This document shows positions 13,537 through 52,104 of a stretch of DNA of 64,000 bases, piece after piece. The notes under the pieces are model-generated. The model saw only the letters and a program-made list of their open reading frames with translations, was not told where the DNA came from and did no database searches. The stretch lies in NCBI GenBank assembly GCA_023954045.1, contig JAMLIR010000008.1, positions 62,001 through 126,000 on the forward strand, in the 5' to 3' direction. The position numbers and the translations under genes were made by a program. The stretch's first letter is position 1. Each line of letters opens with the position of its first letter. This DNA comes from Burkholderiaceae bacterium. GTDB lineage: Bacteria; Pseudomonadota; Gammaproteobacteria; Burkholderiales; Burkholderiaceae_E.

Positions 13537-14217
13537 TCAGCGCGCGTCGGCCGCGCCCGCGGGGCGAGCCGGTGGGCGCGGCCCGGCCGCGCGGGCCCTG
13601 GCGCGGTGCTCCCAGGGCGGCAGCGGATCCGCGTCGCGCCAGAGCCCGAGCGCGCGCAGTCGGGCCTGCCGCTCGGCCTGCGCGTAACGGCGGCGGACCG
13701 CCGGCCGAAGGTCCGCGTCGTAGCGCGCGAAGTGCCAGGCGAGTCCCGCGCGCAGCTGCGCGAGTCCGGCGTCGTGCCGGGCGACGAAGACGCGGCCGAC
13801 GAGCCGGTCGAAGCGGTCGGTCTTGATGACGTCGATGCGCACGTCGCGATCGTCGAGCTGCTCGAGCAGCGCGCGGCGCGACACGTCGGCCCAGGGCTGC
13901 CCCTTTTCGGGCGCGTCGATGCCGGCGATGCGTACGCCGCGCACGCCGCGGCCGTCGATGCGCACCAGCAGCGAGTCGCCGTCGAGCACCCTCACGACGT
14001 GGCCTTCGAGGGCGACGACTGCGGGCGCCCCCGCGCCAGTCCCGGGTGCCGCCGCGCCGGCATCGGATGCCGCCGCGCCGAGTGGCGCCGCGGCGGCGAG
14101 GGCGAGCAGCGTCGCCAGCGTGCGAACCAGTGACGTGCGCGCCCACGCGGGCAGGCGCGGCGAACGACGAGGCGGGGCGGCGCTCGCGGCCCCGATCCGG
14201 TCGTTGATGGGGATCAA
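13537..14217 (-). CDS. Secreted thermonuclease-like (SNase) nuclease
   Basis: The mature part holds a staphylococcal-nuclease fold: VLDGDSLLVR, VRIAGIDAPEKGQPWAD, and DRFDRLVGRVFV, with the arginine and glutamate positions of the active site visible. Before it lies a basic stretch and a hydrophobic alanine/leucine segment ending near AASDAG, a likely signal peptide, so it should act outside the cytoplasm. There is no ATG; the TTG at 14217 is the best start I see, but it falls inside an FNR-type box, so the start is uncertain. The 3' end faces the sirtuin gene. Confidence 0.85.
   Translation of the reverse strand: MIPINDRIGAASAAPPRRSPRLPAWARTSLVRTLATLLALAAAAPLGAAASDAGAAAPGTGAGAPAVVALEGHVVRVLDGDSLLVRIDGRGVRGVRIAGIDAPEKGQPWADVSRRALLEQLDDRDVRIDVIKTDRFDRLVGRVFVARHDAGLAQLRAGLAWHFARYDADLRPAVRRRYAQAERQARLRALGLWRDADPLPPWEHRARARAAGPRPPARPAGAADAR
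14204..14217 (+). promoter_or_regulatory. Perfect FNR/ANR box with class II promoter for the CBS gene
   Basis: TTGATGGGGATCAA matches the FNR/ANR consensus TTGAT-N4-ATCAA at all ten positions. A -10-like GACAAT (14240-14245) ends 34.5 nt from the box centre, exactly the geometry of a class II FNR promoter (box centred at -41.5). This predicts a start near 14252 and a 20-nt leader before the ATG at 14272. Confidence 0.85.
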
Positions 14218-14271
14218 CCCGCGCGGGAACGCGCGCACCGACAATCGCGGGCAATCGCAACGGAGATCTGC

Positions 14272-14718
14272 ATGAACGTCGGAACTGCCTGCACGCGCGA
14301 GGTCGTCACCTGTCTCGCCGCCACCTCGCTCGCCGAGGTCGCCAGCCGCATGCGCGACCACCACGTCGGCGCGGTGGTCGTCATCGACGACGAGCAGCGT
14401 CGCCGACCGATCGGGGTCGTCACGGACCGTGACATCGTGATCGAGATCGTGGCGACGGGGCTCGACGCCAACACGATCACCGCGGGCGACGTGATGCTCG
14501 ACGGCCTGGTCACCGTCACCGAGGACAGCGGGCCGCTCGAAGCCGCCCGCGCGATGCGCTCGCGCGGCGTTCGCCGCTTGCCGGTGGTCGATGGCAACGG
14601 CGCCCTCGCGGGCATCATCGCGCTCGACGACCTCGTCAACCTGCTTTCGACCGAGATGGGGCATCTGGCGCGGCTGATCGAGCGCCAGCCGAAGCGCGAG
14701 GCGCAGAAGCGTCCGTGA
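14272..14718 (+). CDS. CBS-domain pair protein
   Basis: A 148-residue protein made almost wholly of two CBS motifs (residues 8-62 and about 76-128), recognisable by VGAVVVIDDEQRRRPIGVVTDRDIV and the second copy RGVRRLPVVDGNG. CBS pairs (Bateman modules) bind adenosine nucleotides and sense energy state; stand-alone ones often act as regulators. GGAG lies 8 nt before the ATG. It is preceded by a perfect FNR box, so it is probably induced at low oxygen. Its 3' end overlaps the opposite-strand yqjK-like gene by 83 nt. Confidence 0.92.
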   Translation: MNVGTACTREVVTCLAATSLAEVASRMRDHHVGAVVVIDDEQRRRPIGVVTDRDIVIEIVATGLDANTITAGDVMLDGLVTVTEDSGPLEAARAMRSRGVRRLPVVDGNGALAGIIALDDLVNLLSTEMGHLARLIERQPKREAQKRP

Positions 14719-15106
14719 CGGCGGCGCGGCGGGGATCGGGCCCGGCCCGCCTCCCACCGCCAGCGGCCGGCGCGCGCATCGCCCGCCACACCGAGGCGAC
14801 CGTCGCCGCGCGCAGGCCGTAGCGCCAGCCGGTCCTGAGCATCCCGAACAGGCGCCGTCCGCGCCCGCTGGCGGCGATTCCCGTTGCGGACAGGGCCAGC
14901 AGGCCCAGCGCCAGCGGGTGTTCGCGGATCCGGCGCACCCGATCCAGCGTGGCGTCGACGCGCTCGAGCGTCGGCGCGATTCGCTGCCATCGCGCGGCGA
15001 GCGCTTCGCGCTGCAGCGCGCTGAGCGTTCGCAACCGCACCATCCGCTGGCCGGCGGTCTCCGGGCGAGGGCGCGGACGACCCTGTGGCGCGACGGGCTC
15101 GGTCAC
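14636..15106 (-). CDS. YqjK-like protein
   Basis: Third gene of the yqjD-yqjE-yqjK arrangement, 13 nt after yqjE. The first 100 residues carry the family pattern: a basic N-terminus with RLRTLSALQREALAARWQ, a hydrophobic LALGLLALSATGIAA segment and GRRLFGMLRTGWRYGLRA. The C-terminal 50 residues are alanine/arginine/proline-rich and run into the convergent CBS gene, so the true stop may be the result of decay of an older one. Function unknown; it is presumed to sit at the inner membrane. Confidence 0.65.
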   Translation of the reverse strand: MTEPVAPQGRPRPRPETAGQRMVRLRTLSALQREALAARWQRIAPTLERVDATLDRVRRIREHPLALGLLALSATGIAASGRGRRLFGMLRTGWRYGLRAATVASVWRAMRAPAAGGGRRAGPDPRRAAVTDASAPRASAGARSAAPDAPSRSKAG

Positions 15107-50285: not shown

Positions 50286-52039
50286 GTCGACTCCAGCGTC
50301 GAAGTGTCGCCTTCGGGCAGGCCGAGCTCGCGTGCCTTCAGCAGCCTGCGCATGATCTTGCCGCTGCGCGTCTTCGGCAGGCTCGCGACGAAGTCGATCT
50401 CCTTCGGCGCGACCGCGGCGCCGAGGCGCTTGCGCGCGAAGCCGAGCAGATCCCGCCTGAGCGCCTCGTCGGGTTCGAAGCCCGCCTTCAGCGCGACGAA
50501 GGCCTTGACGACCTCGCCGATCACGGGCTCGGGCTTGCCGATCACTCCGGCCTCGTGCACCGCGGGGTGGTCCATCAGCGCGGACTCGACCTCGAAGGGC
50601 CCGATCAGGTGGCCGGCGGACTTGATCATGTCGTCGGCGCGCCCGAGGAACCAGAAGTAGCCGTCCGCGTCGCGCCGCGCGAGGTCGCCGGTCAGGTACC
50701 AGTCGCCGGAGAAGCACTTGCGGTAGCGCGCCTCGTCGTTCAGGTAGGTGCGGAACATCGACGGCCACCCGGCGCGAAGCGCCAGTTCGCCCTCGAATGC
50801 CGGGTCGTCGACCGGCTCGGCGCCGCCACCCGGCGTGCGCCGCACCACCGCCGCCTCGATGCCCGGAAGCGGCTTACCCATCGAACCGGGGCGGATGTCG
50901 AGTGCCGCGAAATTGGCGATCATGATGCCGCCGGTCTCGGTCTGCCACCAGTTGTCGTGGATCGGCAGGCCGAATGCCTCGACGCCCCAGTTCACCGCCT
51001 GCGGATTCAGCGGCTCGCCGACGCTGGCGATGAAGCGCAGCTTCGGGAACGCGTGGCGACGCGCCGCTTCCGCCCCGGTCTTCATCATCATGCGCACGGC
51101 CGTCGGCGCCGTGTACCAGACGCTGACCCGCTCGCGGCCGAGGATTGCGTACCACCGCTCGGCATCGAAGTCGGCCTCGTCGACCACCTGCGTGATGCCG
51201 TGCGCGAGCGGCGCAATGACGCCGTACGAGGTGCCCGTGATCCAACCCGGATCGGCCGTGCACCAGAACACGTCGTCGGCGTGGAAGTCGAGCGCGAGGC
51301 GGCCGGTCGCATAGTGGGCGACGATCGCCTGGTGGACGTGCAGCGCGCCCTTGGGCTTGCCGGTCGTGCCGCTGGTGAAGTGCAGCAGCGCCGGCGTTTC
51401 CGGATCGGTTGCGCCGATCTCGTAGGCAGGGCTGGCTGCGTCGAGCAGCGCCTGCAGCGCCTGCGTGCCGGGGGGGAACGTCGCACCGCCTTCGTCGTCC
51501 ACCAGCAGCACGTGCTCGAGCGAGGGCAGTCGGGCGCGGATCGACTCGACCTTGCGTCTATAAAGGCTCGTCGTCGTCACCAGCACCCTGGCGCTGCCGA
51601 TTTCCATCCGCGTCACGATCGGCTCGGGACCGAACGCCGAGAACAGCGGGGTCACCACGCAGCGGTGCTTGAGCGCGCCGAGCAGGCCGACGTACAACGC
51701 GGGAATGCGCCCGCACAGCAGGAACACGCGATCGCCTGCGCCGATGCCCAGGCCGTCGAGCACGTTGGCGAATCGGGAAGTCAGGTCGCGCAACTGCGCG
51801 TAGGTGATGTCCTGCGTCGCGTCGTCGCGGCCAAGCCATCGAAGCGCGATCCGCGTCGAGCGCGGGCCCGCGGCGTGGCGATCGACGGCCTCGTGCGCGA
51901 TGTTCAGCCCGCGGCCGCCGGGCAGGCCGTCGAGCGAGCGCCGGGCGGTTGCCCAAGAGAATCCGGCGCGCTCGGCGTCGTAGTCGACCAGGTTCGGGCG
52001 AACCGGCAGCCCCGCGGGCTCCTTGCGGATGATGTCCAT
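50282..52039 (-). CDS. Acetyl-CoA synthetase / AMP-forming acetate-CoA ligase family
   Basis: 585 residues of the ACS type: [15 protein letters not shown] (P-loop), [47 protein letters not shown] and the acetylation/catalytic lysine motif [12 protein letters not shown]. It converts acetate, or a close acid, to acyl-CoA. The trimmed N-terminus and lower length than Acs (650) suggest the shorter form. First gene of the acs-pdh operon, with an FNR-like box 52 nt upstream. The true substrate cannot be fixed by eye. Confidence 0.9.
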
Positions 52040-52090
52040 GCGTGTCTCGGTGATGCCCCGCAGGCTATCGCCCGGGGCGCGAGGGTCGCA

Positions 52091-52104
52091 TTGCGTCGGA
52101 TCAA
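52091..52104 (-). promoter_or_regulatory. FNR-type box upstream of the acs-pdh operon
   Basis: TTGCGTCGGATCAA matches 8 of 10 consensus positions (one perfect ATCAA half). The operon start at 52039 lies 52 nt away. GATAGC (52069-52064) is the only -10-like hexamer at about 33.5 nt from the box centre and is weak. Confidence 0.5.

Follow-up and report, generated by a model that had tools for sequence, protein, structure and literature searches.

The window analysed here is a stretch of 64,000 nucleotides (nt) from a Burkholderiaceae bacterium (GenBank assembly GCA_023954045.1, contig JAMLIR010000008.1, positions 62,001 to 126,000) with a G+C content of 71.7%. At 16.7 kb it encodes a transcriptional activator of the FNR/FixK type, and the genes of a hybrid kinase and an OmpR-family response regulator lie convergent with the activator gene. 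A repeat resembling the rhizobial K-box precedes the activator gene, and FixK-type boxes precede several further genes (Table 1). We argue that the window probably holds an oxygen cascade of the hFixL-FxkR-FixK type together with several of its targets. Genes were called with our own codon-score script instead of a standard gene finder.

Table 1. Genes, boxes and promoter elements of the putative cascade and its candidate targets (positions within the window).
Feature	Position	Strand	Remarks
FNR/FixK-type activator without iron-sulphur (Fe-S) cysteines (P0001)	16708..17457	+	model scores, motif reading
K-box GTTACAAATCGTTAC	16589..16603	+	followed by GTTTC at the same 10-nt period
-10 hexamer TAGATT of the fnr/fixK promoter	16646..16651	+	predicted start ~16658, K-box centre ~-62
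hFixL-like hybrid kinase: PAS, GAF, HisKA, HATPase, receiver	17492..19606	-	Pfam; PAS apparently closest to heme PAS folds, His83
FxkR-like OmpR-family response regulator	19603..20319	-	overlaps kinase gene by 4 nt
FixK/FNR-type box TTGATGGGGATCAA	14204..14217	+	upstream of CBS gene; -10 GACAAT 14240-14245
CBS-domain protein	14272..14718	+	Pfam PF00571
FixK-type box TTGCGCTCCGTCAA (read towards usp)	16405..16418	-	-10 TACAAT 16377-16382
Universal stress protein (usp)	15899..16342	-	Pfam
DUF883 gene, downstream of usp	15541-15894		Pfam
Holin-X-like gene, downstream of usp	15120-15503		Pfam
FixK-type box TTGAGGGATATCAA	34609..34622	+	-10 GACAAT 34645-34650; before APH-AAA gene (likely start 34676, by reading)
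FixK-type box TTGCGGCCGATCAA (towards archease gene)	39348..39361	-	-10 GATAAG 39320-39325
Archease-like gene	38857..39276	-	NCBIfam NF001617 'hypothetical protein', 111 bits, under cut-off 126
RtcB-like ligase gene	37344-38774	-	follows archease-like gene, same strand
FixK-type box TTGATCCGACGCAA (towards acs)	52091..52104	-	-10 TAGCCT 52062-52067
acs - PDH E1 alpha - E1 beta genes	48313..52039	-	NCBIfam, Pfam
NrdJ/FtsH box of the earlier note TTAATCCGTATCAA	23362..23375	+	probably chance

The activator and its two-component neighbours

An earlier note on this DNA had recognised the FNR protein at 16.7 kb; it missed both the cysteine-free sensor part and the adjoining cassette of kinase, regulator and K-box. 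The protein scores 199 bits against the Fnr model (cut-off 228) and 101 bits against the FixK model, and its recognition helix is of the FNR type (LETVSR; E196, S199 and R200 are invariant in set A1). P0001 lacks the Fe-S motif CxxCx5C and the fourth cysteine, and the motif is absent from 16 of 16 genus orthologues as read, P0001 included; the G005 orthologue, whose N-terminus lies in another reading frame than the remainder, was not scored. Orthologues occur in 16 of the 18 genus genomes searched, the other two giving no match at E <= 1e-12. As far as they were read, those of G012 and G010 are entirely free of cysteine, and a conserved cysteine switch was rejected on this ground.

The earlier note had also envisaged a cysteine-bearing FNR elsewhere in the genome, but none was found in this assembly (97% complete, 50 contigs) or in the genus. 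P0001 is the sole match to itself in its own genome at E <= 1e-12, and its other Crp/Fnr-type proteins were judged by reading to belong to different types: L019 and L020 have an E..SR helix too, but preceded by an Arg that we take to be that of CRP. Six weaker matches were obtained in the genus (best 1e-19), five of them readable and none of these five with the cysteine motif, while one gave no match; L295, one of the weaker matches, has its N-terminal part out of frame. A second genus of the family has the cysteine-less protein in four of five genomes. Among 80 fnr loci of named genomes (some being the same genomes as in the genus set), nine are cysteine-less, including those of Lautropia sp. 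SCN 69-89 and Zeimonas arvi, and 71 carry the motif.

The response regulator matches FxkR9 of Rhizobium johnstonii 3841 at 51% over 232 amino acids and groups with FxkR; the two further OmpR-type regulators included, which make only a thin control, stand apart. The kinase and receiver parts of the hybrid kinase match hFixL9 at 44%. Comparison of a model of its PAS domain with solved structures points to heme PAS domains as the best matches, with the proximal His aligned, though other PAS folds score only slightly lower.

The sequence upstream of the activator gene is GTTACAAATCGTTACGGGCCGTTTC. The second half of its K-box, GTTACG, leaves one mismatch to GTTACA-N4-GTTACA. A GTTAC-N5-GTTAC repeat is present in all 18 aligned upstream sequences of cysteine-less fnr genes (16 of this genus, G020 and G029), in 17 exactly and in one with 1 mismatch, and in 18 of 18 a TAnnnT begins exactly 57 nt after the first base of the repeat. 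With the third GTT included, the repeat has a single mismatch-free occurrence in the genome. In the named set of 80 loci, all nine cysteine-less fnr genes come with K-box, kinase and regulator, whereas neither the K-box nor close homologues of the kinase/regulator pair were found at any of the 71 cysteine-bearing loci; in the sequence available around these, the only matches were a distant regulator (L136, 37%) and a distant kinase (L162, 31%). A candidate site for FNR autoregulation at 16656 was rejected, being a 3-mismatch site that is not kept.

FixK-type boxes and candidate targets

According to the earlier note, six FNR-type boxes stand at the heads of operons and point to one regulon arranged as a chromosomal block. 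The boxes at 14204, 16405, 23362, 34609, 39348 and 52091 are indeed there, with 10, 7, 9, 9, 8 and 8 of 10 positions agreeing with TTGAT-N4-ATCAA. Allowing up to 3 mismatches, the window has 101 matches against a shuffle mean of 35.8, the majority inside genes, and this raw count alone proves little. Given that 3-mismatch sites are common in the window, the comparison was restricted to upstream gaps. The window has 23 of these, and the control comprised 92, taken from twelve stretches of 20 kb each (together 240 kb of the 4.02-Mb genome). Sites with at most 2 mismatches occur in 5 of 23 window gaps against 3 of 92 control gaps, and sites with at most 1 mismatch in 3 of 23 against 0 of 92. The perfect TTGAT-N4-ATCAA is found four times in the whole genome (14204 included) and the reversed control pattern not once.

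The published box consensus of FixK2 is TTG(A/C)-N6-(T/G)CAA (PMC5582078, PMC9104804). Exact sites number five in the 64 kb (14204, 16405, 34609, 39348 and 52091), every one in an upstream gap; the 240-kb control has two, one of them upstream. Per gap this amounts to 5/13 for the block against 1/92 (Fisher p = 7.5e-5) and to 5/23 for the whole window against 1/92 (p = 0.0011), statistics that are partly post hoc as the consensus was picked once the sites were known. When the 13 gaps in the block were shuffled with their composition preserved, five exact sites were reached in 0 of 2000 cases.

The -10-like hexamers that had been described at 33.5-36.5 nt from the box centres were found, including the GACAAT shared by the CBS and APH-AAA genes at 34.5 nt. 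Our search covered only hexamer ends within this range and scored them with a weight table. For the CBS (GACAAT), Usp (TACAAT), APH-AAA (GACAAT) and archease (GATAAG) genes the best hexamer ends exactly 34.5 nt from the centre, for the remaining five box/gene pairs at 33.5, 35.5 or 36.5 nt, and all nine pairs rank in the best 3% of random window positions. Nonetheless, since 23362 also scores well, in both directions, the -10 score cannot separate good from bad boxes. Transcription starts deduced from the -10 elements would place the boxes near -40, and at this position the FixK2 consensus is exact, with fitting -10 spacing, in five of the six sites.

Conservation was assessed in two genomes of the genus that are syntenic over most of the block (G005 and G013) and in two with partial synteny (G004 and G012). 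All four retain the CBS box together with its GACAAT, which, with the window's own genome, makes five genus genomes sharing the gene arrangement. Upstream of usp, TTGCG-N4-GTCAA with a -10 is present in 7 of the 15 genus genomes having a readable usp start; of the other eight, three have a variant site and five none comparable. Two of two relatives (G005 and G013) retain both the archease box and the acs box, each with its -10 element. Boxes with class II-type spacing before CBS, Usp, archease and acs-pdh are hence conserved and point to one regulon. The APH-AAA box is probably genuine (an exact FixK2 match with a -10 at 34.5 nt); its conservation is only partial, one half being damaged in G013 (TCGAGGGATATCAA) and the G005 alignment showing no such box. 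The box before NrdJ/FtsH (23362) fell away: it is not kept in G005 or G013, its TTG core is broken and it does not match the FixK2 consensus.

Over the 4.02-Mb genome exact FixK-type sites number 105 against 188 for the reversed control pattern. As the control is the commoner of the two, the genome-wide count of this loose pattern proves nothing, and consequently the case rests on gap position and conservation. On contig 1, 8 of 15 inspected sites lie inside genes. With 105 sites in the genome, five would fall together in some 38-kb stretch with a probability of 0.72, or of 0.046 if only the estimated 49 upstream sites count; the clustering is modest and, genome-wide, weak. Of the earlier claim the single regulon is supported, whereas the single block is not, the other three perfect boxes lying elsewhere in the genome. 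One of these three precedes a benzoyl-CoA-reductase-like gene, another a gene for a 2-oxoacid oxidoreductase, which is divergent from that of a benzoyl-CoA-pathway-like dehydrogenase, and the third etf genes; one-mismatch boxes precede phenol-metabolism-like, Na+-ATPase-like and oxidase/cytochrome b genes, all named by reading translations. No -10-like hexamer stands where one would be expected for the etf box and for some of the other boxes. Judging from these sites, the regulon is spread over the chromosome and the window appears to be a dense part of it plus the regulator. A further exact FixK-type box, TTGACGGACGTCAA, lies on the same contig outside the window (L077, G000:C49:14945).

Among the neighbouring genes, those for the RtcB-like ligase, the archease-like protein (a name taken over from the earlier note) and a fatty acyl-AMP-ligase-like protein share a neighbourhood around one box (37344-42318); G005 shows no aligned stretch >300 nt over most of the acyl ligase gene. 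Beyond acs, a Group I intron (RF00028, E 1.9e-10, 45.8 bits, gathering score 50) at 52924-53160 on the reverse strand appears by reading to split a tRNA-Asn(GTT)-like gene that ARAGORN did not report; this stretch is 88% alike in G005. Adjoining the intron-bearing tRNA is a PDDEXK_5 endonuclease-like gene (53198-53650, reverse strand), over most of which G005 has no aligned stretch >300 nt.

Spread of the cassette and competing explanations

In 399 genomes of the order Burkholderiales, with two candidates scored per genome, full-length relatives of the kinase were found in families f1, f6, f38, f49 and f29 (numbering ours) and partial ones in f36. All 12 fetched kinase regions have an adjoining FNR-type gene, ten without the cysteine cluster and two (f36) with it, and 7 of the 12 have a K-box (at most 1 mismatch); a Variovorax paradoxus plasmid also carries the cassette. 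The cassette FNR of the f36 loci (L260 and L261) keeps its Fe-S cysteines, no K-box was found there, and a possible intermediate or double-sensor form might be seen in it. G029, G127 and G330 hold an Fe-S FNR as well as the cassette protein; in G029 the loci concerned (L194 and L195 / L274) would be useful for comparing the regulons within one genome. G110 (one contig, f38), G195 and G295 yield the cysteine-less protein only, at E <= 1e-25, with 5, 28 and 6 perfect boxes against 0, 1 and 0 control sites. G028, which has an Fe-S FNR, gives 8 against 5, so that box counts are not informative everywhere.

A tree was built from 60 of 75 rows (L261, long branches and near-copies were dropped), on columns that omit the N-terminal cluster but include the position of the fourth cysteine. 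In this tree the betaproteobacterial Fe-S FNRs group in a single clade (87/97), with the cassette proteins from families f1, f6 and f38 placed outside; one clade for these cassette proteins is compatible with the data (AU p 0.42) but also not demonstrated. Given this position, a freshly decayed FNR was rejected, and a FixK-type paralogue retained after loss of the Fe-S FNR is the better view of the window protein.

In the cascade that we propose, the hybrid kinase would sense low oxygen through a FixL-type heme PAS domain and phosphorylate the neighbouring OmpR-type regulator. The regulator would then bind the K-box at about -62 and turn on the cysteine-free activator, which in turn would bind TTG(A/C)-N6-(T/G)CAA boxes at about -41.5 and switch on CBS, Usp, APH-AAA, archease and acs-pdh, as well as anaerobic-looking genes elsewhere in the genome. 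As far as sequence can tell, what is in place are the genes and their linkage, a K-box at fixed spacing, boxes with -10 elements (four conserved) and the absence of the Fe-S cysteines. Because no Fe-S FNR was found in the genus, nor apparently in at least two more genera, the task of sensing oxygen on behalf of the FNR regulon seems to have passed from the Fe-S cluster of the activator to the kinase controlling its transcription. The cascade is apparently the sole FNR-type control in several genera.

It might be argued that the gaps, which are AT-richer, yield such boxes by chance: sites are common when 3 mismatches are allowed, and 23362 resembles such a case. We regard this as extremely unlikely, as the exact consensus is confined to upstream gaps, shuffling reproduced it in 0 of 2000 cases and the boxes are conserved together with their -10 elements. 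For 14204, 16405, 39348 and 52091 a chance origin was rejected on conservation and exact consensus in gaps, and the clustered boxes appear to be mostly real. They could alternatively be worked by a normal Fe-S FNR encoded in the missing 3% of the assembly, with the cysteine-less protein as a side regulator; the 50 contigs at 97% completeness leave room for it, and G029 and G127 (f6) do carry both forms. Nonetheless, the cassette FNR occurs in 16 of 18 genus genomes, the five readable weaker matches lack the motif and the one-contig G110 yields the cysteine-less protein only (E <= 1e-25), which makes a hidden Fe-S FNR very unlikely.

Slightly less improbable, yet still quite unlikely, is that the linked kinase and regulator do not control fnr at all, the repeat being the site of another protein and the cysteine-less FNR being constitutive or ligand-activated like Dnr. 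The absence of a K-box in 5 of the 12 fetched cassettes with a kinase would fit this, and binding of the K-box is itself a prediction; on the other hand, K-box, regulator, kinase and cysteine loss coincide in 9 of 9 loci, none of the 71 cysteine-bearing loci has the repeat, and the repeat matches the rhizobial FxkR site that PMC4999443 reports to be confirmed by gel shift. The cascade might also be real but respond to redox state, nitric oxide or another ligand in place of oxygen, which we consider unlikely, though the least so of these alternatives. Weighing against an oxygen signal, the distal Arg of FixL is not kept in the kinase PAS domain, heme PAS domains can bind several gases, and one box (L294) precedes a hemerythrin-like gene (by reading). 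The nearest characterised systems, FixL and rhizobial hFixL, nevertheless sense oxygen, and the targets at perfect boxes look anaerobic. On balance, the oxygen cascade is the reading that we prefer.

Comparison with known systems

FNR is the textbook case of a transcription factor that itself senses oxygen. Here the boxes remain, as does the DNA-reading part, while the sensor part is missing in every genus genome where the gene was read; the adjoining two-component system, with a putative binding site before the gene, may offer a replacement for the lost sensor. FNR-box predictions are thus not proof of control by an Fe-S FNR. The window protein shares the recognition helix LETVSR and TTGAT-N4-ATCAA boxes with the Fe-S FNR/ANR proteins of Betaproteobacteria, but differs from them in lacking the cluster cysteines and in its place outside their clade.

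The closest likeness is to the hFixL-FxkR-FixK pathway, which governs the oxygen response in root-nodule bacteria; in Rhizobium leguminosarum/johnstonii 3841 and R. etli it comprises a hybrid FixL-type kinase, an OmpR-type FxkR, a K-box GTTACA-N4-GTTACA at -62 of fixK and a FixK without the cysteines of FNR that acts on anaeroboxes. The cascade proposed here differs in its Burkholderiales host, in an activator nearer FNR than FixK by model score, in its PAS-GAF kinase, convergent gene order and stress-gene setting, and in that no Fe-S FNR partner was found. With FixLJ-FixK2 of Bradyrhizobium diazoefficiens it has the box consensus in common, and the FixK2 regulon table (PMC5582078, PMC9104804) includes a universal stress protein and a holin-family protein. 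Differences are that FxkR is no FixJ homologue and that FixK2 is under oxidative control, studied with Cys183, whereas the G012 and G010 proteins are cysteine-free as read. By description, not by sequence, the low-oxygen locus lxa of Burkholderia cenocepacia is also alike (50 genes, six of them for universal stress proteins; PMC9733578).

Among the papers found on FxkR, none names Betaproteobacteria in its title; hFixL and Betaproteobacteria do co-occur in print, and we make no claim that the cascade is unreported in this group. According to PMC4999443, hFixL-FxkR-FixK arose in the ancestor of the Rhizobiaceae. Since the set, including a K-box identical over 15 nt, turned up in several families of Burkholderiales, this proposed origin becomes testable. 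We lean somewhat towards the view that a Burkholderiaceae lineage gave up Fe-S sensing by FNR and runs a regulon with anaerobic-aromatic-like genes through a heme kinase, FxkR and a K-box, that the same switch took place in f38, and that the cascade would be older or more mobile than an origin in the Rhizobiaceae implies.

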